A stretch of DNA of 64,000 bases. Source: Streptomyces seoulensis. GTDB lineage: Bacteria; Actinomycetota; Actinomycetes; Streptomycetales; Streptomycetaceae. This document shows positions 18,131 to 33,402 of the stretch, one piece after another (within the stretch, counting starts at the first letter, position 1; every line of letters starts with the position of its first letter). The stretch covers positions 2,021,001-2,085,000 of the forward strand of contig NZ_AP025667.1 of assembly GCF_022846655.1 (NCBI RefSeq). Reading direction: 5' to 3'. The translations under genes and the position numbers were made by a program. Under the pieces are notes generated by a model. It saw only the letters and a list, made by a program, of their open reading frames with translations, made no database searches and was not told where the DNA came from.

Positions 18131-18269
18131 CCAGGCTTTCGAGGGTGTCCGATCACCCCCCTTGCCAGGCTCCCGCCGTGTGAACGCCCTGTGGCGGGGT
18201 GGACGCGAACGGGCCGGGCAGGGGGAGGATGGGGGTGACCCACCAGCAGTGACAGCGGGAGGAAGCAGC

Positions 18270-19595
18270 GTGAGCGAGACGGACACGGCCAAGGGCGTCA
18301 CCGGTGAGGACGAGGTCGTGGACCTCTGCCGCGACCTGATCCGGTTCGACACCAGCAACTACGGCGACCACTCCGGTCCCGGCGAGCGCGCCGCCGCCGA
18401 GTACGTCGCCGGGAAGCTCGCCGAGGTCGGCCTCGAGCCGAAGATCTTCGAGTCGCATCCGGGGCGCGCCTCCACCGTCGCCCGCATCGCGGGCGAGGAC
18501 CCGTCCCGGCCGGCCCTGCTGATCCACGGCCACCTGGACGTCGTACCGGCCAACGCCGACGACTGGACCCACGACCCCTTCTCCGGCGAGATCGCCGACG
18601 GGTGCGTGTGGGGACGCGGGGCCGTCGACATGAAGGACATGGACGCGATGACCCTCGCGGTCGTCCGTGACCGGCTGCGCAGCGGGCGCAAGCCCCCGCG
18701 GGACATCGTCGTCGCCTTCCTCGCCGACGAGGAGGCGGGCGGCACCTACGGCGCCCGCTACCTGGTCGACAACCACCCCGAGCTGTTCGAGGGCGTCACC
18801 GAGGCCATCAGCGAGGTCGGCGGGTTCTCCTTCACGGTGAACGAGCAGCGGCGCCTCTACCTGATCCAGACGGCCGAGAAGGGCATGCACTGGATGAAGC
18901 TGACCGTGGCCGGCACCGCCGGGCACGGCTCGATGATCCACCGCGACAACGCCATCACCGAGCTGTCCGAGGCGGTCGCCCGCGTCGGCCGCCACAAGTT
19001 CCCGGTGCGGGTCACCAAGACCACCCGCGCCTTCCTGGACGAACTCGGCGACGCGCTCGGCACCGAACTGGACCCCGAGGACATGGAGTCCACCCTCGCC
19101 CGGCTCGGCGGCATCGCCAAGCTCATCGGCGCCACCCTCAGCAACACCGCCAACCCCACCCAGTTGAACGCCGGTTACAAGGTCAACGTCATCCCCGGCG
19201 AGGCCACCGCCCACATCGACGGCCGCTTCCTGCCCGGTCACGAGGAGGAGTTCCTCACCGACCTCGACCGGCTGCTGGGTCCCCACGTGCGCCGCTCGGA
19301 CGTCCATGCGGACAAGGCCGTCGAGACCAGCTTCGACGGGGCCCTGGTGGAGGCCATGCAGTCCGCGCTGCTGGCCGAGGACCCGATCGCCCGTGCGGTG
19401 CCGTACATGCTCTCCGGCGGCACGGACGCCAAGTCGTTCGACGACCTCGGCATCCGGGGCTTCGGCTTCGCGCCGCTCAAGCTCCCGCCGGAGCTGGACT
19501 TCGCCGGGATGTTCCACGGCGTGGACGAGCGGGTTCCGGTGGACGGGCTCCAGTTCGGCGTGCGGGTGCTCGACCGGTTCATCGACGCCTCCTGA
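18270..19595 (+). CDS. M20/M28 family zinc peptidase (DapE/ArgE-like)
   Basis: 441 residues from GTG 18270 with GGGAGGA seven bases upstream; the longer frame lacks a start signal. Di-zinc ligand motifs are present: HGHLDVVP (His88, Asp90), RGAVDMKD (Asp120), and ADEEAGGTYGARYL with the catalytic Glu-Glu. A dimerisation domain follows (GTAGHGSM). Such enzymes hydrolyse N-acyl amino acids or dipeptides. No signal peptide, so cytosolic. It sits between tRNA-Leu and the chaplin genes. The substrate is not readable, and it is probably unrelated to the chaplins. Confidence 0.87.
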   Translation: MSETDTAKGVTGEDEVVDLCRDLIRFDTSNYGDHSGPGERAAAEYVAGKLAEVGLEPKIFESHPGRASTVARIAGEDPSRPALLIHGHLDVVPANADDWTHDPFSGEIADGCVWGRGAVDMKDMDAMTLAVVRDRLRSGRKPPRDIVVAFLADEEAGGTYGARYLVDNHPELFEGVTEAISEVGGFSFTVNEQRRLYLIQTAEKGMHWMKLTVAGTAGHGSMIHRDNAITELSEAVARVGRHKFPVRVTKTTRAFLDELGDALGTELDPEDMESTLARLGGIAKLIGATLSNTANPTQLNAGYKVNVIPGEATAHIDGRFLPGHEEEFLTDLDRLLGPHVRRSDVHADKAVETSFDGALVEAMQSALLAEDPIARAVPYMLSGGTDAKSFDDLGIRGFGFAPLKLPPELDFAGMFHGVDERVPVDGLQFGVRVLDRFIDAS

Positions 19596-19742
19596 GGCCA
19601 CCGGTCACGGGTAATCAGGCAGGCGTACGAGATCGACTGAGAAGAGTGAATGCGCCGATAAGCTCGTAGCCCGATTACTTCCCCCTCGTTACAGGTGATG
19701 CGACCCCGCACCTTGGGGCCGCGTTTCCAACTAGGAGGAATA

Positions 19743-19976
19743 ATGATCAAGAAGGTCGTCGCCGCCGCGGTTGCCACCGGTGGACTGGTTCTCGCGGGTG
19801 CTGGCATGGCCGCCGCCGACGCGGGTGCCAACGGTGCCGCCGTGGGTTCCCCCGGTGTCCTGTCCGGCAACGTGGTCCAGGTGCCGGTGCACGTCCCGGT
19901 GAACGTCTGCGGCAACACGATCAACGTGATCGGGCTCCTGAACCCCGCCTTCGGCAACACCTGCGTCAACGACTGA
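19743..19976 (+). CDS. chpH: Short chaplin, ChpH type
   Basis: 77 residues from ATG 19743 with AGGAGG upstream. A Sec signal peptide ([20 protein letters not shown]...AAA, about 26 residues) precedes one chaplin domain: [33 protein letters not shown] and FGNTCVND. The two cysteines form the conserved disulphide. Short chaplins are secreted amphipathic, amyloid-forming peptides that coat aerial hyphae and lower surface tension. Sequence and length match ChpH, and a long chaplin gene follows immediately, as chpC follows chpH in S. coelicolor. The 147-bp upstream region should hold a developmental promoter; I see no certain sigma motif. Confidence 0.93.
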
Positions 19977-20097: not shown

Positions 20098-21042
20098 ATG
20101 CGACAGGGCACCCGTAAGGGCCTGATGACCATGGCGGCCGCGACCGGAGTGATCGCCGCCGCCGGTGGATACGCACACGCCGACTCGGGCGCGGCCGGCT
20201 CCGCCACCCGCTCGCCCGGCGTACTGTCCGGCAACACCGTGCAGGTCCCGGTCCACGTACCGGTGAACGCCTGCGGCAACACCGTCGACGTCGTCGGACT
20301 GCTCAACCCGGCCGTGGGCAACGCCTGCGGCAACGGGGCGCGTGGCGGTCCGGGGGGCGCGCACGCCGGCGGCCGCACCAGTGACTCGCCGGGCATCGGC
20401 TCCGGCAACACCGTCCAGGTGCCGATCGACGTCCCGGTCAACCTCTGCGGCAACAGCGTCGACGTGATCGGCGTGGGGAACCCGGCGCTGGGCAACCGGT
20501 GCGGGAACGGTGGCCCGGGCCGAGGCCAGGAGAATCCGCCCGGACATCCGGGCAACCCCGGCCAGCCGGAACAGCCGGGTAACCCCGGTACGCCGGGACA
20601 CCCCGGCCACCACGGGGGCTCGTGCCCTCCCGGCCACCATGACCATCACCCCGGTCATCCGGGGAATCCCGGTACGCCTGGGAATCCCGGTCATCCGGGG
20701 AATCCCGGTACGCCTGGGAACCCTGGTCATCCGGGGAATCCCGGCACGCCTGGGAATCCCGGCACTCCGGGCAACCCCGGTCAGCCGGGCAACCCCGGCA
20801 CCCCGACCCGGCCCCACACCCCGGACACCCCCAGCACTCCCGCGACCCCGACCACCCCCTCCACCGGCGGTGGCCACACCCCGCAGGGGGCCTCGCAGGT
20901 CGGCCACCAGGGCGGACACGTCTCCGGCGGCCAGCTCGCCCACACCGGTGGTGACCTGCCGCTCGGCCTCGGGCTGTCGGCCGGTGCGGGCGCGGCGCTC
21001 GCGGGCGCGGTCCTGTACCGCAAGGCCCGCAAGGCGGCCTGA
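20098..21042 (+). CDS. chpC: Long, sortase-anchored chaplin with a collagen-like stalk
   Basis: 314 residues. A signal peptide (to about residue 28) is followed by two chaplin domains: about 39-78 (Cys59, Cys77) and 98-136 (Cys117, Cys135). Residues 149-236 are a Pro-Gly stalk with Gly-X-Pro triplets; 186-236 is an unbroken run of 17 triplets ([12 protein letters not shown]). A Thr/Pro linker, the sortase signal LAHTG (280-284), a hydrophobic span and a basic tail (RKARKAA) follow. The product is secreted and covalently anchored to the wall by an SrtE-type sortase, displaying chaplin domains on the hyphal surface. Gene order after chpH matches chpC; the collagen-like stalk is unusual for the family as I know it. 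Confidence 0.9.
20653..20760 (+). repeat. 36-bp repeat, three copies, encoding (Gly-X-Pro)4 units
   Basis: Three near-identical 36-bp copies start at 20653, 20689 and 20725, each encoding [12 protein letters not shown]. Only a few third positions differ, so amplification is recent. More diverged triplets flank them. Confidence 0.9.
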
Positions 21043-21316: not shown

Positions 21317-21350
21317 CGCATCTATTGTGCGGGCTGGTGCCCGGTACGGA

Positions 21351-21363
21351 TAGCGTCTGCACT
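21351..21363 (+). promoter_or_regulatory. -10 element placed for a leaderless transcript
   Basis: TAGCGT (21351-21356) ends seven bases before the ATG at 21364, and there is no Shine-Dalgarno sequence. Confidence 0.45.
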
Positions 21364-22044
21364 ATGTCTGATGCTGCGCAGCCCACCGCTGCCGAGGTAC
21401 GCGCCGCCGCCGAGGCGGTCAAGACCGCGCTCGACCGTCACCTGGCGGCCGTCGAACGCAGGACGGGTGACGACGACCCGGCCGTCCACGAGGCGTTCAA
21501 TCAGCTTGCGGCGGCCGGCGAGGTGTACGACGAGCTGCTCTACGACCGCTACGACGAGGTCACCCCCTTCGAGATCCCCGGTGCCGACGACTCGCTGCCG
21601 CCGTACGCGGGCCCGGAGGAGCCCCACGCCGTCAGCGTCCTGATCCGCCGTGACTACACGGTGGCCGAACCCCAGCGGCTGCTGGCCCAGGCCCAGCGGG
21701 TGGAGGCGGCGGAGTTCGAGGAGCCCCTCACGGACGACGACACCGCGAGCACGGTCCCCGGCGCGCTCGGCATCCTGTTCGGCGAGTTCGAGCCCGACGA
21801 GATCGCATCCCGGCACCGCGAGTTCGGCCTCGCCGAGGGCGACTCCACGCTCTGGGTCACGGCGGCGGAGGAGGCGGCCGAGCCCGGCGAATGGCTGGAG
21901 GCCCCCTTCGAGGAGGCCGACCCACAGCACGTGATCTGCCGCTTCGACGTCAGTGCCGTCTTCGACCGGGACGACAGCGACGACACCGACGAGCCGCACG
22001 GACCGGCCGACGACGACCTGGATCCGCACGACCGCGACCGGTGA
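21364..22044 (+). CDS. Acidic conserved hypothetical protein
   Basis: 226 residues from ATG 21364. Strongly acidic; the C-terminal ~25 residues are almost all Asp, Glu, His and Pro, ending DDDLDPHDRDR. The N-terminus is helical (TAAEVRAAAEAVKTALDRHL), and the core contains YDELLYDRYDEVTPFEIPGA and VSVLIRRDYTVAEPQRLL. No membrane span, signal peptide or catalytic motif is visible. Its likely leaderless promoter is adjacent to the DUF5703 start. A 14-bp repeat array follows 12 bases after the stop. I do not recognise a function. Confidence 0.75.
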   Translation: MSDAAQPTAAEVRAAAEAVKTALDRHLAAVERRTGDDDPAVHEAFNQLAAAGEVYDELLYDRYDEVTPFEIPGADDSLPPYAGPEEPHAVSVLIRRDYTVAEPQRLLAQAQRVEAAEFEEPLTDDDTASTVPGALGILFGEFEPDEIASRHREFGLAEGDSTLWVTAAEEAAEPGEWLEAPFEEADPQHVICRFDVSAVFDRDDSDDTDEPHGPADDDLDPHDRDR

Positions 22045-22055
22045 ACCCACGACGC

Positions 22056-22139
22056 TGAACGACCAGCGGTGAACGACCAGCGGTGAACGACCAGCGGTGA
22101 ACGGCCAGAGATGAACGGCCAGAGATGAACGACCAGCGG
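22056..22139. repeat. Six tandem copies of a 14-bp unit
   Basis: TGAACGACCAGCGG is repeated at 22056, 22070, 22084 and 22126; the copies at 22098 and 22112 read TGAACGGCCAGAGA. Each unit begins with TGA. The array lies just after a stop codon and abuts a terminator hairpin. Confidence 0.92.
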
Positions 22140-22169
22140 TGCCGTACCGGAACGCTCCGGTACGGCACC
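22138..22169. terminator. Bidirectional terminator
   Basis: A perfect 13-bp stem (GGTGCCGTACCGG and complement) closes on AACGCT between two convergent genes. Confidence 0.85.
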
Positions 22170-22189
22170 GCCGTGTTCGCGCCGCCCGC

Positions 22190-24403
22190 TCAGCCGGCCG
22201 GGGGAAGCTGCACCCGCAGCAGTGTCCGCAGCCGGGTCGTACGCGGCTTGGCCACGCTCTCGGCGACCGCCTTCGGCAGCGCCTGCTCCACTCCGTGCAC
22301 CACGGACAGATGACGCTCCGCCCGGCCGAACGCGGTGTACACCCACGGCCGGGTCAGCACCCCCGCCGCGTCACCGGGCAGCACCACCACGGCGGCGGGC
22401 CAGCGGCCGCCCACCGCCTGGTGCGCGGTGAGCGCCCAGCCGTGCCGCACCCGGCTCTCCACCAGTTCCCTGGGCACGACCACCGGCGCGCCCGCGCACT
22501 CCAGGTGCAGCCCCGCCTCGTCCGCCCGCACCACCCGGCCCGGCACCGTACGGCCCGGCGCGGGGGAGTGCACGATCCGGTCGCCCGGGTCGAAGCCGCC
22601 GAAGCGGCCGGGGCCGGGGTTCAGCCGCTCCTTCAGGACCGTGTTGAGCGCGCGGGTGCCCGCGGCGCCCCCGTGCCCCGGAGTGATCACCACCGTCTCC
22701 TCGGGCCGGACCCCGAACGCGCGCGGCACCGAGTCCGCCACCAACTGCACCGTGCGGTGCACCGCTTCGCCCGCGTCCCGCACCGGGACGATCACGATCT
22801 CCTTGCCGGGCGCCTCGACCTGGCCCAGCTCACCCACGCCGATGCCCGAGACCAGCTCACCGAGCGGGCCGGGGTCGGGGACGCGGGAGGCGACCTGGGG
22901 ACAGGCGGGGACGGCGAGCAGGTCGGCGAAGACCCGGCCGGGTCCGGTCGACCACAGCAGCGCCGGGTCACCGCTGAGCAGCAGCCGCGCACCGTCCGGC
23001 AGCGACTCGGCCAGCATCGCGGCGCCCTCGACGTCCAACTGGGGCGCGTCCAGCACGATCAGCAGATCGAGGTCCAGCGCGCCCTCCGCGTCCCGGCCGG
23101 GGCCCGAGGCGCCGGACAGCAGGCCCGCGACGGTGCCCACGGCACCCGTGCCGGGCTCCTCGCCGAGCTGAGCGGCGAAGCGGCGGGCGCCGTCGGGGGT
23201 GTGGCAGACCGCGAACGCGCGCAGGCCCGCCTCGCGGGCGGCGCCGAGCAGCGCGGCGGGCTCGGCACGGGCGGCCTCGCCGCCGGTGTGCAGCACCAGG
23301 CCGTGCCCGGCGACCTGGCGGGCCAGCTCGGCCGCACCGCCCGAGAGCGCGGCCACGGCCGCCTCCCAGGGCTCCTCCGTCTCCTTGGCGAGCGAGTTGA
23401 CCAGCCGGGCCAGCGCGTCCGCGAGGCTCTCCTCGGCGAGCGCGTACCGCTCCAGACCGGCCAGGACGCGGACCGGGACCTCTTCCGCGGCCTCCTCGTC
23501 GTCATCCGCCGCCGCGCGGGCCGCCGGCTGGGCTCCGGGCTGCTCCAGGGCGTCCTGGAAGACCAGCGCGTCGCCCTCCGCCAGCGCGCTCTGCACGGCT
23601 GCGTCCGGGTCCGGTACGGCCCGCCGGCCGAGGGCCTCGGTGAGCGCCGGGAGATCCAGCGCGGTGTGCCCGGCCAGCGCGGCCTGCTCCAGCAGCCACA
23701 CCGTCAGCGCGCGCCCGCGCCGCTCGTCGTCCGGACCGCACTGAGCGCCCAGCAGGGCCCGCGCGAAACCGTCGGCCTGCTCCGGGCGTACGCCCGCGAT
23801 CCGCAGCAACTGCCAGGGGTCGGCGCGGAGCGCGTCCTCGGCGCCGTCACCCAGCGCCGCGGCCGCCTGGGCGGCCAGCGCCTCCGGGGCGCCGCCCTCG
23901 GCCAGCACCGCGCGCACGGCGCCCACGGCCTCGGCGCCGGGCGCGGGAGCCGCCCGCACGGGCTGCGGGCGCTGCACGGGCTCGGGCGCGGAGCGGCGCG
24001 GGGCCGGAGCGGGCTCGGTGAAGGCCGGGGCGACCGGCTTCTCCCCGCTCTCCACGGCCCGTACGGCGGCCAGCAGGTCGGCCGCCGTACCGCTCAGCTT
24101 GCTGCCGCTCTCGACCGGTCCCTCCCGCTCCGCCTTGCGCCGGGCGATCCGCTCCCGCTCCACGCGCTGGGCGGCCAGCTCGGCCGCGGCCTCGGACGGC
24201 GTGGCCGCGCCCTCGGCCGGAGCGTCCCCGCCCTCGGTTGACGGGTCCTGGCCCGGAGCACCGGGGTCGTCCTCGCCGCCCCCGTGGTCCGGCGCGCCGG
24301 CCTCCGCCGCGCCGCCGGAGGTGACTTCGTCCGACGCGGCACCCACGACCGCTTCCTCCTCCGTGCTGCCGGCAGGCGTCTGCGGGTCCGGCTCCGTGGT
24401 CAC
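22190..24403 (-). CDS. RecD2-like helicase homologue with degenerate ATPase motifs
   Basis: 737 residues, GTG start. Residues 1-160 are a low-complexity acidic and Pro/Ala-rich tail. From about 165 the protein follows RecD2/TraA-like helicases: helix-hairpin-helix (DPWQLLRIAGVRPEQADGFA, 195-214), then the ATPase core. The Walker A position reads LHTGGEAARAEP (371-382) instead of GGPGTGKT, with no lysine. Walker B reads DLLIVLDAPQLD (446-457) without the DE pair, and motif III is SGDPALLW instead of GDxxQLP. The C-terminal UvrD-like part is better kept (WALTAHQAVGG; WVYTAFGRAERHLSVV). It is probably a non-hydrolysing relative with a structural or DNA-binding role. Its start overlaps the AKR stop by four bases. 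Confidence 0.8.
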   Translation of the reverse strand: MTTEPDPQTPAGSTEEEAVVGAASDEVTSGGAAEAGAPDHGGGEDDPGAPGQDPSTEGGDAPAEGAATPSEAAAELAAQRVERERIARRKAEREGPVESGSKLSGTAADLLAAVRAVESGEKPVAPAFTEPAPAPRRSAPEPVQRPQPVRAAPAPGAEAVGAVRAVLAEGGAPEALAAQAAAALGDGAEDALRADPWQLLRIAGVRPEQADGFARALLGAQCGPDDERRGRALTVWLLEQAALAGHTALDLPALTEALGRRAVPDPDAAVQSALAEGDALVFQDALEQPGAQPAARAAADDDEEAAEEVPVRVLAGLERYALAEESLADALARLVNSLAKETEEPWEAAVAALSGGAAELARQVAGHGLVLHTGGEAARAEPAALLGAAREAGLRAFAVCHTPDGARRFAAQLGEEPGTGAVGTVAGLLSGASGPGRDAEGALDLDLLIVLDAPQLDVEGAAMLAESLPDGARLLLSGDPALLWSTGPGRVFADLLAVPACPQVASRVPDPGPLGELVSGIGVGELGQVEAPGKEIVIVPVRDAGEAVHRTVQLVADSVPRAFGVRPEETVVITPGHGGAAGTRALNTVLKERLNPGPGRFGGFDPGDRIVHSPAPGRTVPGRVVRADEAGLHLECAGAPVVVPRELVESRVRHGWALTAHQAVGGRWPAAVVVLPGDAAGVLTRPWVYTAFGRAERHLSVVHGVEQALPKAVAESVAKPRTTRLRTLLRVQLPPAG

Positions 24404-25383
24404 AGGGTGCTCCAGTCGTGATCGGGATAGCGGTGCACGGGCGCCGACACATCGTCCAGCGCCCGGCAGATCTCGTCAGGAAGCGTAAGCGCCTCCACCG
24501 ACAACGCCGCCGCGAGCTGCCGTGCGTCGCGCGCGCCGACGACCGGGGCCGTCACACCCGGCCGGTCCCGGACCCAGGCGAGGGCCACCTGGAGCGGGGT
24601 CACCGCGAGCCCGTCGGCGGCCGTGGTCACCGCGTCCACGATCCGGCTCGCGGTGTCGTCCAGATACGGCTCGACGAACGGCGCCATGTGCTCGGAGGCG
24701 CCGCGCGAGTCGGACGGCACACCGCCGCGGTACTTCCCCGTCAGCACCCCCCGGCCCAGCGGGGAGGAGGGCAGCAGGCCGACCCCGAGGTCCAGCGCGG
24801 CGGGCAGCACCTCGCGCTCGACGCCCCGCTGGAGCAGGGAGTACTCGAGCTGCGTCCCGGCCAGCCGGGTCCGGGTGCCAGGTGCGGCGAGCTGCCAGGT
24901 GGCCGCCTTGGCGAGCTGCCAGCCGCAGAAGTTCGACACCCCCACGTACCGGGCGCGCCCGGTGCTCACGGCCAGGTCCAGCGCCTGGAGCGTCTCCTCC
25001 AGCGGGGTGTCGGGGTCGTGGCAGTGGATGTGCCACAGGTCGACATGGTCGGTGCCCAGACGCTCCAGGGAGGCGTCCAGGGCGGCGAGCAGATGCCCCC
25101 GGGAGCCGTCGGCCGGGCGCTCGGGGTCCGGCACGCTGCCGGCCTTGGTGGAGATCACCAGGTCCTCGCGCGGCACCAGACCGTCCGTCAGTCGTCCGAG
25201 CAGGTACTCGGCGGCCCCGTCGCCGTACACGTCCGCGGTGTCCACCAGGGTGCCGCCCGCCTCCCAGAACGTCTTCAGCATGCCCGCGGCGTCGTGCTCC
25301 TCGGTGTCCCGGCCCCAGGTGAGGGTGCCGAGCCCGATCCGGGACACGCGCAGGCCGGTACGGCCGAGATGCCTCTGCTCCAT
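24400..25383 (-). CDS. Aldo/keto reductase
   Basis: 327 residues from ATG 25383 (MEQRHLGRTGLRVSRIGLGT). The TIM-barrel AKR signatures are present: DTADVYGDGAAEYLLG with catalytic Asp and Tyr, VISTKAG with the Lys, DLWHIHCHDPDTP with the His, and VGVSNFCGWQ. NADPH-dependent reduction of aldehydes or ketones is expected; no substrate is evident. The ATG has no ribosome site, but TAATCT lies seven bases upstream, so it is likely leaderless. The stop overlaps the start of the RecD2-like gene (GTGA), giving a coupled two-gene operon. Confidence 0.88.
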   Translation of the reverse strand: MEQRHLGRTGLRVSRIGLGTLTWGRDTEEHDAAGMLKTFWEAGGTLVDTADVYGDGAAEYLLGRLTDGLVPREDLVISTKAGSVPDPERPADGSRGHLLAALDASLERLGTDHVDLWHIHCHDPDTPLEETLQALDLAVSTGRARYVGVSNFCGWQLAKAATWQLAAPGTRTRLAGTQLEYSLLQRGVEREVLPAALDLGVGLLPSSPLGRGVLTGKYRGGVPSDSRGASEHMAPFVEPYLDDTASRIVDAVTTAADGLAVTPLQVALAWVRDRPGVTAPVVGARDARQLAAALSVEALTLPDEICRALDDVSAPVHRYPDHDWSTL

Positions 25384-25396
25384 GTGCGCGAGATTA
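25384..25396 (-). promoter_or_regulatory. -10 element for a leaderless AKR transcript
   Basis: On the minus strand TAATCT (25391-25396) is followed by CGCGCAC and the ATG, leaving no room for a leader. Confidence 0.5.
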
Positions 25397-25515
25397 CTGG
25401 CCAGAGCTGGTGCCGTGGGTTGCCTGTGGACAACGGGACCCGGCCACTGCCCACGGAACACCCGAGGCGGGGTGGGCCGCGCGGGAAAGGGTCGCTAAGG
25501 TCGGCCGCAGATACG

Positions 25516-25529
25516 TTACTTGCGAGTAA
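25516..25529. promoter_or_regulatory. Inverted repeat TTACT-TGCG-AGTAA before the LLM gene
   Basis: Five-bp arms separated by TGCG end 11 bp before the ATG at 25541, within or near the promoter. The symmetry suggests a TetR-type operator; the cognate regulator is not obvious. Confidence 0.4.
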
Positions 25530-25540
25530 GGGGATCGGTC

Positions 25541-26596
25541 ATGCAGCTCGGGATCAACCTCGGCTACTGGGGCGCCGGGATGGACGGGGACAACCTCGCC
25601 GTGGCGCAGGAGGCCGACCGGCTCGGCTACGGCGTCTGCTGGGCGGCCGAGGCGTACGGCTCCGACGCGGCCACCGTGCTCAGTTGGGTCGCGGCCCAGA
25701 CGGAGCGGATCGACGTGGGCTCGGCGATCTTCCAGATCCCGGCTCGCCAGCCCGCCATGACCGCGATGACCGCGGCCACCCTCGACTCCCTCTCCGGCGG
25801 CCGCTTCCGCCTCGGCCTCGGCGTCTCAGGGCCGCAGGTCTCCGAGGGCTGGTACGGCGTCAAGTTCGACAAGCCGCTCGCCCGCACCCGCGAGTACGTC
25901 GAGATCGTCCGCAAGGCGATGTCCCGCGACCGCCTGTCGTACGAGGGCGAGCACTGGACGCTGCCGCTGCCCGGCGGCCCCGGCAAGCCGCTGAAGCTGA
26001 CCGTGCACCCGCAGCGCGAGCACATCCCGCTCTACATCGCCGCCATCGGCCCGAAGAACCTGGAGCAGACCGGCGAGATCGCCGACGGCGCCCTGCTGAT
26101 CTTCCCGTCCGCCGAGCACCTGGAGGACACCGCGGTCACGCATCTGCGGGCCGGCCGGGAGAAGGCGGGCAAGACCCTCGACGGCTTCGACATCTGCCCC
26201 ACCGTGCCGCTCGCGCTCGGCGAGGACGCCGACGTGGCCCGGCTCGCCGACACCTTCCGCCCCTACACCGCGCTCTACGTGGGCGGTATGGGCAGCCGCA
26301 AGCAGAACTTCTACAACCGGCTCGCCCAGCGCATGGGATACGAGAAGGAGGCCGCCGAGATCCAGGACAAGTACCTCGCCGGCGACAAGGAGGGCGCCGC
26401 GGCCGCCATCCCGCACGACCTCATCGACAAGACCACCCTGCTCGGCTCCGTCGACCGCATCGCCGACCGCATGAAGGCGTACGCGGCGGCCGGCGTCACC
26501 ACCCTCACGCTCGCCCCGGCGGGCTTCACCCTGGAGGAGCGGATCGCCGCCCTGCGCGGCGGCGCCGAGGCCCTGGAGCGCGCCGGCCTCGCCTGA
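25541..26596 (+). CDS. LLM-class F420-dependent oxidoreductase
   Basis: 351 residues from ATG 25541. Luciferase-like monooxygenase fold of the F420-dependent subgroup: MQLGINLGYWGAGMDGDNLA, GSAIFQIPARQPAMTAMTAA, LDSLSGGRFRLGLGVSGPQV and PLYIAAIGPKNLEQTGEIAD. Proteins with this pattern use reduced F420 to act on diverse metabolites. The short palindrome TTACTTGCGAGTAA just before the start suggests repressor control. It is divergent from the AKR/RecD2-like operon. The fold is certain; cofactor and substrate are inferred from the family. Confidence 0.88.
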   Translation: MQLGINLGYWGAGMDGDNLAVAQEADRLGYGVCWAAEAYGSDAATVLSWVAAQTERIDVGSAIFQIPARQPAMTAMTAATLDSLSGGRFRLGLGVSGPQVSEGWYGVKFDKPLARTREYVEIVRKAMSRDRLSYEGEHWTLPLPGGPGKPLKLTVHPQREHIPLYIAAIGPKNLEQTGEIADGALLIFPSAEHLEDTAVTHLRAGREKAGKTLDGFDICPTVPLALGEDADVARLADTFRPYTALYVGGMGSRKQNFYNRLAQRMGYEKEAAEIQDKYLAGDKEGAAAAIPHDLIDKTTLLGSVDRIADRMKAYAAAGVTTLTLAPAGFTLEERIAALRGGAEALERAGLA

Positions 26597-31004: not shown

Positions 31005-32234
31005 ATGCATGCCTGGCCCGCTTCCGAGGTCCCCGCCCTGCCTGGTCAGGGCCGCGACCTGAGGATTCACGACACCGCGACCGACGGTCCGGTCACCCTC
31101 GACCCCGGTCCCGTCGCCCGGATCTACGTCTGCGGCATCACGCCGTACGACGCGACCCACATGGGTCACGCGGCGACCTACAACGCGTTCGACCTCGTCC
31201 AGCGCGTGTGGCTCGACACCAAGCGGCAGGTCCATTACGTCCAGAACGTCACCGACGTCGACGACCCGCTGCTGGAGCGCGCGACGCGCGACGGCGTCGA
31301 CTGGGTCGCCCTCGCCGAGCAGGAGACCACCCTGTTCCGCGAGGACATGACCGCCCTCAGGATGCTGCCGCCCCAGCACTACATAGGCGCCGTCGAGGCC
31401 ATACCCGGCATCGTCCCGCTGGTGGAACGGCTGCGGGACCTCGGCGCGGCCTACGACCTGGACGGTGACATCTACTTCTCCGTCGACTCCGACCCGCACT
31501 TCGGCCAGGTCTCCAACCTGGACGCGGCCGCCATGCGGCTGCTGTCGGCCGAGCGCGGCGGCGACCCGGACCGCCCCGGCAAGAAGAACCCGCTCGACCC
31601 GATGCTCTGGCTCGCGGCCCGCGAGGGCGAGCCGAGCTGGGACGGCGGCACGCTCGGCCGGGGCCGCCCCGGCTGGCACATCGAGTGCGTGGCCATCGCG
31701 CTGGACCACCTCGGCATGGGCTTCGACGTCCAGGGCGGCGGCTCCGACCTCGCCTTCCCGCACCACGAGATGGGCGCCTCCCACGCCCAGGTGCTCACCG
31801 GCGAGTTCCCCATGGCCAAGGCGTACGTCCACGCCGGCATGGTCGGCCTGGACGGCGAGAAGATGTCCAAGTCCAAGGGCAACCTCGTCTTCGTCTCCAC
31901 GCTGCGCCGCGACGGCGTCGACCCGGCGGCCATCCGGCTCGCCCTGCACTCCCACCACTACCGCGCGGACTGGGAGTGGACCGACCAGGTGCTCCAGGAC
32001 GCCGTGGACCGCCTCGGCCGCTGGCGCGCCGCCGTGTCCCGGCCGGACGGCCCGTCCGCCGACGCGCTGGTGGACGAGGTCCGCGAGGCCCTGGCGGACG
32101 ACCTGGACGCGCCCGCCGCGCTCGAGGCCGTGGACCGCTGGGCCGCTCGCCAGGAGGCCGAGGGCGGCACCGACATCGGCGCCCCCGGCCTGGTCAGCCG
32201 CACCGTCGACGCGCTGCTCGGCGTGGCTCTCTGA
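31005..32234 (+). CDS. mshC: L-cysteine:1D-myo-inosityl 2-amino-2-deoxy-alpha-D-glucopyranoside ligase MshC
   Basis: 409 residues from ATG 31005. A class I cysteinyl-tRNA-synthetase-like catalytic domain: zinc-binding VCGITPYD, a HIGH-like [26 protein letters not shown] and DLAFPHHE, and KMSKSKG at residues 286-292. The C-terminal tRNA-binding part of CysS is missing and the length is that of MshC, not CysRS. It ligates cysteine to GlcN-inositol with ATP, the penultimate step of mycothiol synthesis. No other mycothiol gene is in the window. A leaderless promoter and a very strong terminator frame the gene. Confidence 0.95.
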
Positions 32235-32315: not shown

Positions 32316-33308
32316 TCAGTCCTCCGAGCCGTCCGCCTCTTCGCTGTCGGAGGCGCCCGGCGCCTCCGGCTTCGGGGGCTTGGGCGGGCGGGTGCGGCCG
32401 CTCGGGGTGTCACGGCGGTAGGGCCCGCTGTCCGCGCCGTCCGCCGTGGCGTGCCCGCCGGGTCCGCCCACGTCCCGGCGCCGCAGATACCGCTCGAACT
32501 CGCGCGCGATGGCCTCGCCGGACGCCTCCGGCAGCTCGGCGGTGTCGCGGGCCTCCTCCAGCGTCTGTACGTACTCCGCGACCTCGCTGTCCTCGGCGGC
32601 GAGCTGGTCCACGCCCGTCTGCCAGGCACGCGCGTCCTCGGGCAGCTCGCCCTGCGGTATCCGCAGGTCCAGCAGGTCCTCCAGACGGTTCAGCAGCGCC
32701 AGCGTGGCCTTCGGGTTGGGCGGCTGGGAGACGTAGTGCGGCACCGCGGCCCACAGCGACACCGCGGGGACACCGGCGTGCGTGCACGCCTCCTGCAGGA
32801 CGCCGACGATGCCCGTCGGGCCCTCGTACTTGGTCTCCTCCAGGTTCATCCGGCGGGCCAGGTCGGCGTCCGAGGTGACCCCGCTGACCGGCACCGGACG
32901 CGTGTGCGGGGTGTCGCCGAGCAGCGCGCCCAGGATCACCACCAGCTCCACGCCCAGCTCGTGCGCGAAACCCAGCAGCTCGTTGCAGAACGAGCGCCAG
33001 CGCATCGACGGCTCGATACCGCGCACCAGCACCAGGTCACGCGGCTTGTCCCCGCCGACACGGACCACCGAAAGCCGGGTCGTCGGCCAGGTGATCTTGC
33101 GTACGCCGCCCTCCATGAAGACCGTCGGGCGGTTCACCTGGAAGTCGTAGTAGTCCTCGGCGTCCAGCGCCGCGAACACCTCGCCCTTCCACTCGCGTTC
33201 CAGATGCGCGACCGCCGTGGAGGCGGCGTCACCGGCATCGTTCCAGCCCTCGAACGCGGCCACCATGACTGGGTCGATCAGCTCGGGAACACCCTCCAGC
33301 TCGATCAC
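32316..33308 (-). CDS. PAC2 family protein (proteasome assembly chaperone-like)
   Basis: 330 residues from GTG 33308 with AGGAGG six bases upstream. The PAC2 domain occupies about 1-230: VMVAAFEGWNDAGDAASTA, YYDFQVNRPTVF, LVLVRGIEPSMRWRSFC, ILGALLGDTPHTRPVPV and VSLWAAVPHYVSQPPNPKAT. The C-terminus is low-complexity, acidic and Pro/Lys-rich (RTRPPKPPKPEAPG). Eukaryotic PAC2 helps assemble 20S proteasomes. Bacterial homologues are widespread, and in actinobacteria lie within a few tens of kb of prcBA. A chaperone role here is inferred only. It is convergent with mshC and downstream of the NACHT gene on the same strand. Confidence 0.88.
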   Translation of the reverse strand: MIELEGVPELIDPVMVAAFEGWNDAGDAASTAVAHLEREWKGEVFAALDAEDYYDFQVNRPTVFMEGGVRKITWPTTRLSVVRVGGDKPRDLVLVRGIEPSMRWRSFCNELLGFAHELGVELVVILGALLGDTPHTRPVPVSGVTSDADLARRMNLEETKYEGPTGIVGVLQEACTHAGVPAVSLWAAVPHYVSQPPNPKATLALLNRLEDLLDLRIPQGELPEDARAWQTGVDQLAAEDSEVAEYVQTLEEARDTAELPEASGEAIAREFERYLRRRDVGGPGGHATADGADSGPYRRDTPSGRTRPPKPPKPEAPGASDSEEADGSED

Positions 33309-33402
33309 CCAGTGCCTCCTTCCGACGTGCTCTCGCCTGACCACCCAACCTTACGGCGTCCGACGGGAGCCTCCGCAGCCCCCTCGCAAGGGGCTGAACG
33401 GA

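Follow-up and report, generated by a model that had tools for sequence, protein, structure and literature searches.

Helicase folds that have lost their catalytic motifs are known as such. According to PMC4824097, AddB and RecC contain inactivated superfamily 1 (SF1) domains that recognize Chi, and the PriA protein of Deinococcus radiodurans, as described in PMC4504706, has no ATPase yet binds single-stranded DNA (ssDNA) and forks. Here, we describe a RecD2-type pseudohelicase gene in a window (the whole stretch of DNA analyzed, 64,000 nucleotides) from Streptomyces seoulensis (NCBI RefSeq assembly GCF_022846655.1, contig NZ_AP025667.1, positions 2,021,001 to 2,085,000 of the forward strand), the product of which is likened to RecC and AddB in their helicase fold without motifs that is kept for a nonmotor job (PMC4824097) and to PriA as a bacterial stand-alone helicase whose Walker boxes are degraded (PMC4504706). 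What is new here is a pseudohelicase of the RecD2 fold whose origin can be placed and whose reduced relatives make up a natural series; searches of the open-licence PubMed Central literature found no paper that deals with such a protein or with this locus. RecC and AddB differ in that the domains belong to a helicase-nuclease complex and have a topology like that of UvrD, and no such complex is indicated at the pseudohelicase locus. PriA belongs to superfamily 2, does not have the RecD2 fold, and was biochemically tested, whereas the pseudohelicase is known here from sequence and a structural model. RecD2 of D. radiodurans (PDB 3gp8, 3gpl, and 3e1s) has the same fold as that predicted for the pseudohelicase over 484 to 523 residues, and the HHH_RecD2 domain and motif VI arginine are common to the pseudohelicase and to RecD2 of both D. 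radiodurans and Streptomyces. Unlike RecD2, the pseudohelicase has no Walker A, Walker B, or motif III glutamine, carries an altered motif V, and occupies another locus and clade. The second RecD2-like helicase of Frankiaceae and Geodermatophilaceae (e.g., L100 and L113) is its positional ortholog at 34 to 40% identity and shares the HGWA start of motif V and the 2A helix with it but differs in that all ATPase motifs are intact.

The open reading frame (ORF) of the pseudohelicase encodes 737 amino acids (aa) from a GTG start at 24403, and bases 24400-24403 also form the last bases of the aldo/keto reductase ORF; the initial annotation had coordinates, strand, frame, and the existence of an overlap right. 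The start codon is unproven, and aa 1 to 153 are variable (mean proportion of nonsynonymous differences [pN] 0.311, pN/pS 0.64) and mostly of low model confidence (predicted local distance difference test [pLDDT] of <50 at aa 1-69, 95-104, and 121-151). An antisense ORF at 22139-24241 (+) was rejected as a real gene since homologs match the minus-strand frame, and TAL-effector matches were rejected because no single stretch passes alone. Just downstream of the gene, before the convergent ORF at 21325-22044 (+), lies a tandem repeat (22056-22141) of about six copies of the 14-mer TGAACGACCAGCGG with 91% matches.

Two Pfam domains exceeded their cutoffs in the protein (HHH_RecD2, 4.2e-11; UvrD_C_2, 2.6e-6), AAA_30 fell below its cutoff, and the predicted three-dimensional fold is that of RecD2. 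The P-loop position reads LHTGGEAARAEP (residues 371-382), and the Walker B DE and motif III GDxxQLP of RecD2 are replaced within VLDAPQLD (450-457) and SGDPALLW (477-484), exactly as the initial annotation had read them; the losses that it listed stand, but it understated their extent, with motif Ia also altered and motif V changed from R to Q at 662 and from E to R at 667. The NCBIfam RecD2 model TIGR01448 gave 101.3 bits against a cutoff of 500, compared with 825.5 bits for the canonical RecD2 paralog of the same genome and 442.4 bits, also under the cutoff, for the intact ortholog L100. Judged from its sequence, the protein would be unable to hydrolyze ATP or to translocate.

This loss extends across the family. 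Family- and order-level searches sampled 96 genomes of Streptomycetaceae (f1), all of which were read: 88 have the common loop region, 6 (g2 and g5) have another loop, 1 has a split gene, and 1 is without the gene, which is thus kept in 95 of 96. A 59-genome family set leans to high-scoring matches, and 29 genomes were added later (7 stop-flagged loci and 22 others). G-x4-GK[ST] occurs in none of the 93 complete family frames (64 + 29) and in none of the best 120 nearest proteins, so that loss of the P-loop lysine is common to these sequences and a misaligned P-loop was rejected. None of the 14 motif Ia positions invariant in intact relatives is kept in at least 90% of the 59 genomes; at 5 of them, the residue of the intact relatives is still the commonest. 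Across the query and the best 120 of 4395 proteins over threshold, H372, T373, G374, E376, E381, P382, and A383 are identical in 121/121. Likewise, all 88 common-loop genomes have H372, [TS]373, G374, [ED]381, D452, and R507, while [ED]376 is found in 84 and P382 in 80; among the residues new to the family, H372 and D452 are present in 88 and E381 in 87. The motif VI arginine R694 is present in 86 of the 88. Loops such as GPGEEPP occupy this position in the g2 and g5 genomes (L086 to L091), of which one g5 genome is Embleya.

Estimated by NG86 alone against 14 same-genus orthologs, drawn from among the best-scoring genomes, the ratio of nonsynonymous to synonymous substitution rates (dN/dS) of the window gene was 0.217 to 0.388, with a median of 0.254 over all 105 pairs of the 15 sequences; canonical RecD2 gave 0.089 to 0.125 in 8 of the same 14 genomes. 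A dN/dS of ∼0.25 within the genus indicates purifying selection. The dead P-loop stretch has a mean pN of 0.078 versus 0.286 and 0.259 on either side (0.066 for domain 2A and 0.063 for motifs V-VI), and this loop is constrained, not drifting. Frameshifts, which the initial annotation had named as evidence that would count against it, were not found in the core frame of any of the seven stop-flagged loci fetched (L229 to L235); the three other loci fetched were one gene split by contig ends (L236 and L237 in G095) and a canonical RecD2 (L238 in G038), and in further stop-flagged family matches (G007, G025, G037, G044, and G058) most of the core is read without a stop. A pseudogene was rejected given the dN/dS of ∼0.25, the open core frames, and the invariant motif positions. 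The motif loss throughout the family, the dN/dS, the predicted RecD2 fold, and synteny all support the initial annotation in proposing a pseudohelicase maintained by selection, a reading that we regard as almost certain.

Outside the family, intact, dead, and truncated relatives were found. At the class level, 45 of 98 genomes matched, some via canonical RecD2 only, and the loci fetched from outside the order included 19 other than canonical RecD2 (L055 to L071, L077, and L078; L060 is partial), while weak matches (f22, f24, f17, G154, G198, and others) were left unread; within the order, 7 of 15 genomes outside the family were read at sequence level (L079 to L085). An intact GGPGTGKS loop was present at 13 of the 19 loci (f9, f12, f14, f16, f20, and f23), and the rest comprised dead forms (L062 and L063 of f19; L069 of f10, whose loop aligns ambiguously), truncated forms (L077 and L078 of f33), and a C-terminal piece without loop coverage (L070 of f18). 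Truncated forms occur in three further families, f4, f8, and f30 (Motilibacter). A contig scan, built on intact sequences with Walker B as a pattern and hence biased to intact forms, found these in Frankia, Blastococcus, Geodermatophilus, Klenkia, Jatrophihabitans, and metagenome-assembled genomes of Frankiales and Pseudonocardiales; f20 groups with Candidatus Frankia in the trees. Each of f2, f3, f19, Actinomadura, and the six g2 and g5 genomes has another P-loop replacement, that of Actinomadura proteins being RGTPDGLART. A protein search with L079 returned two matches only, probably because of its low-complexity N terminus. The Actinomadura madurae protein P0157 is nearly identical to P0151 except in its last part, where the match is lost as if the frame had changed, and its source name, "conjugal transfer protein TraA," looks wrong.

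The residues retained through this series were compared by using 32 orthologs chosen as intact, for which GK[ST] in 32/32 is by construction. In these orthologs, 198 positions are at least 95% identical; at least 90% of the 59 family genomes keep 94 of them, 28 are mostly kept, 22 now have a different conserved residue, and 54 are lost or variable; stretch 534-600 of domain 2A keeps 23 of 34. Truncated genes have open frames of 371 to 489 aa at five loci of f4, f8, f30, and f33 (at L216 the frame is longer, 792 aa, and its named protein, P0124, has 359 aa), and 12 relatives in alignment A3 have 318 to 413 aa. In the truncated forms of these four families, domain 1A has lost its P-loop half and the SH3 part is missing as well; in f10, the P-loop half is absent and the SH3 part kept. 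Forty-seven positions are common to four sets of sequences, namely intact (32 rows, threshold of 90%), family (59 rows, 90%), other dead (15 rows, 70%), and truncated (14 rows, 70%), and 17 of them, including R550, Q553, L554, S558, and A562, occur in <30% of nine canonical RecD2 rows; these five, P560, and R561, all at aa 534-562, are kept in intact, dead, and truncated members. One truncated form was predicted with a pLDDT of 90. A compact core of the helix-hairpin-helix (HHH) region, 2A, and C terminus is thereby shown to survive even in forms that have neither the SH3 part nor the P-loop half of 1A.

Gene order ties these forms together. In 22 chosen loci compared with the neighbors in the window, at least two of PAC2, MshC, DUF3090, histidine phosphatase (the labels DUF3090 and histidine phosphatase being our assumption), luciferase-like monooxygenase, aldo/keto reductase, the small unknown protein, and M20 peptidase genes stood beside the gene in 21, the exception (L212) ending at a contig edge. 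The aldo/keto reductase gene was found at 18 of the 22, upstream and on the same strand in 18/18 and ∼4 kb off in L213. The dead genes are thus positional orthologs of the intact ones, not stray paralogs. In a careful tree of 50 rows with motif columns removed (20 of 70 rows dropped, namely L069, L077, L078, L085, and 16 outgroup or distant rows), intact and dead forms share one group (100/100) that excludes canonical RecD2 and the relatives sampled from the phylum; the dead forms all fall in a single clade (100/99), and each of the 200 bootstrap trees counted shows one state change. A quick 70-row tree that includes the long branches agrees (Shimodaira-Hasegawa-like approximate likelihood ratio test, 99); long end branches were flagged in it at L077, L069, L193, L078, and L155. 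Since outgroup RecD2 rows are intact where checked, the state change is a loss. One ancestral loss of the ATP site would be the simplest history, which the long branches make less than proof, and, in the simplest history, the dead P-loop was later rebuilt into a constrained loop in most Streptomycetaceae. The initial annotation had held that orthologs with an intact GKT would refute it; such orthologs exist, at the same aligned position, but only in other families, which dates the loss and does not undo it. By sequence and locus, the predicted origin is the second RecD2-like SF1B helicase of Actinomycetia that stands beside the aldo/keto reductase gene, near mshC and the M20 peptidase gene.

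The reading that we favor (probability of about 0.6) is that a RecD2-fold pseudohelicase derived from this second helicase is kept as an ATP-independent binding and docking module, proposed by analogy with the dead helicase folds of RecC/AddB and Deinococcus PriA. The module would bind nucleic acid via the HHH region and the remaining 2A and motif V-VI face, and a partner would dock through the 2A helix with its family-specific R550, Q553, L554, S558, and A562; this mechanism is tentative, and the odds lie somewhat against it in full. Several observations weigh against the favored reading. Binding of nucleic acid or protein is putative; motif Ia, one of the motifs through which SF1 helicases contact ssDNA, has mostly disappeared and motif V is changed, which alters the usual path of ssDNA; in a truncated form, the HHH match (23.1 bits) is under the cutoff of 27; and the neighbors are largely metabolic and point to no repair partner. 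Moreover, dN/dS is about twice that of RecD2, residues 346-365, 389-440, and 601-652 are loosely constrained, the strict pattern H-[TS]-G-G-[ED]-A-[AS]-x-x-[ED]-P fits only 68 of 88 genomes, the six g2 and g5 genomes have other loops and no R507, and in one of the 96 family genomes (G038, 1650 contigs) only canonical RecD2 was found. The relaxed stretches, the doubled dN/dS, and truncation in side lineages could also mark a relic under weak, fading selection, which is scarcely credible given the near-universal retention and open core frames in the family, a dN/dS of ∼0.25 with invariant motif positions, and the confident prediction for a truncated form.

A broader account, possible but doubtful, holds that the selected job never needed the motor: the HHH remnant, 2A, and C terminus would carry the function in intact, dead, and truncated forms, with the ATPase lost first and then half of 1A, and the rebuilt loop may clamp the RecA-like lobes in most Streptomycetaceae. 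We presume from SF1 structures that R507 and R694 of 2A would face the ATP phosphate, and their pairing with E376 and E381 of the loop may give a permanent "ATP-bound" clamp of the two lobes; exceptions are L080, L092, and Actinomadura, with a loop acid and no R694, and f33, with R694 and no loop. The tightness of the loop relative to both flanks and its new, near-invariant residues would also suit a new ligand or partner site in a sensor or switch that is not a nucleic-acid binder, an unlikely reading, as the motif is limited to part of one family, which means that it cannot be the ancestral function, and truncated forms are without the loop. Of the two roles suggested in the initial annotation, a DNA-binding scaffold is a possible one, and a regulator of another helicase is weakened if that helicase is RecD2. 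The S. seoulensis paralog (L002, G000:C1:1029956-1031665; 31% identity over the matched part) has GGPGCGKS, DEAS, and GDVDQLP, making the pseudohelicase a second, divergent gene in a cell with a regular RecD2, which could be inhibited by heterodimerization or fork competition. Among 35 genomes searched with canonical RecD2, 17 match at >1000 bits, and all seven dead-form genomes searched in f1, f2, f3, and f19 (G000, G061, G064, G067, G069, G146, and G178) have it. However, it is absent from 7/7 genomes outside the order with a truncated or dead gene (G111, G115, G117, G148, G165, G171, and G185, from f4, f8, f10, f30 twice, and f33 twice; G148 and G165 are 87% and 84% complete), some of which hold other RecD-like matches, and intact orthologs occur both with RecD2 (f20, 5/5) and without it (f16, 4/4). 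Regulating RecD2 thus cannot be the shared job, other RecD-like partners being possible, and it seems rather improbable that the protein serves specifically as a negative regulator of canonical RecD2 or as its dead partner. RNA binding, or a role with transcription instead of DNA repair, is highly improbable. Besides canonical RecD2, G064, G067, G069, and G163 have a second RecD2-like protein (541 to 592 bits) 46 to 48% identical to Streptomyces RecD2.

The features of the locus are collected in Table 1. No helicase-nuclease gene was found among the neighbors examined, an unlinked partner being possible. Two chaplin genes (Pfam ChpA-C) lie nearby at 19695-19976 (+) and 20098-21042 (+); in the product of the latter, two chaplin stretches are accompanied by a Pro-Gly repeat of collagen type, with tandem repeats in the DNA at 20540-20805, and by a C-terminal LAHTGG that resembles a sorting signal.

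Table 1. Pseudohelicase gene, its parts, and its neighbors, in window coordinates
Feature	Position	Strand	Basis or remark
RecD2-type pseudohelicase gene, 737 aa	22190..24403	-	ORF, Pfam, paralog comparison, predicted fold
N-terminal low-complexity variable tail, aa 1-153	23945..24403	-	pLDDT and pN values
HHH_RecD2 domain, aa 163-247	23663..23917	-	PF14490, 43.1 bits, cutoff 27
Dead P-loop, aa 369-386, LVLHTGGEAARAEPAALL replacing GGPGxGK[ST]	23246..23299	-	Motif alignment, family frames
Dead Walker B/motif II, aa 446-459, DLLIVLDAPQLDVE replacing VVVDE[AST]SM	23027..23068	-	Motif alignment
Altered motif III, aa 473-490, SGDPALLWSTGPG replacing GDPAQLPSIGPG	22934..22987	-	Q lost; GD and GxG kept
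Domain 2A strand and helix, aa 534-562	22718..22804	-	Proposed, putative docking surface
SH3/2B-like part, aa 601-652	22448..22603	-	Missing from truncated relatives
Motifs V-VI and C-terminal end, aa 653-730	22214..22447	-	R694 kept
Aldo/keto reductase	24400..25461	-	Upstream, same strand, 4-base overlap
Luciferase-like (LLM) monooxygenase	25520..26596	+	Syntenic
Protein without Pfam match, convergent neighbor	21325..22044	+	Syntenic in several actinobacterial families
M20 peptidase	18162..19595	+	Syntenic
MshC (mycothiol ligase), synteny anchor	31008..32234	+	TIGR03447, 672.8 bits, cutoff 485.1
PAC2-family protein	32319..33344	-	Syntenic

Some members of the family are annotated in source records as "DNA helicase RecD" or "ATP-dependent RecD-like DNA helicase," names that their sequences do not support. 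With intact, dead, and truncated forms at one conserved locus, this natural series makes a motor-free role of the helicase fold testable by ortholog swaps.
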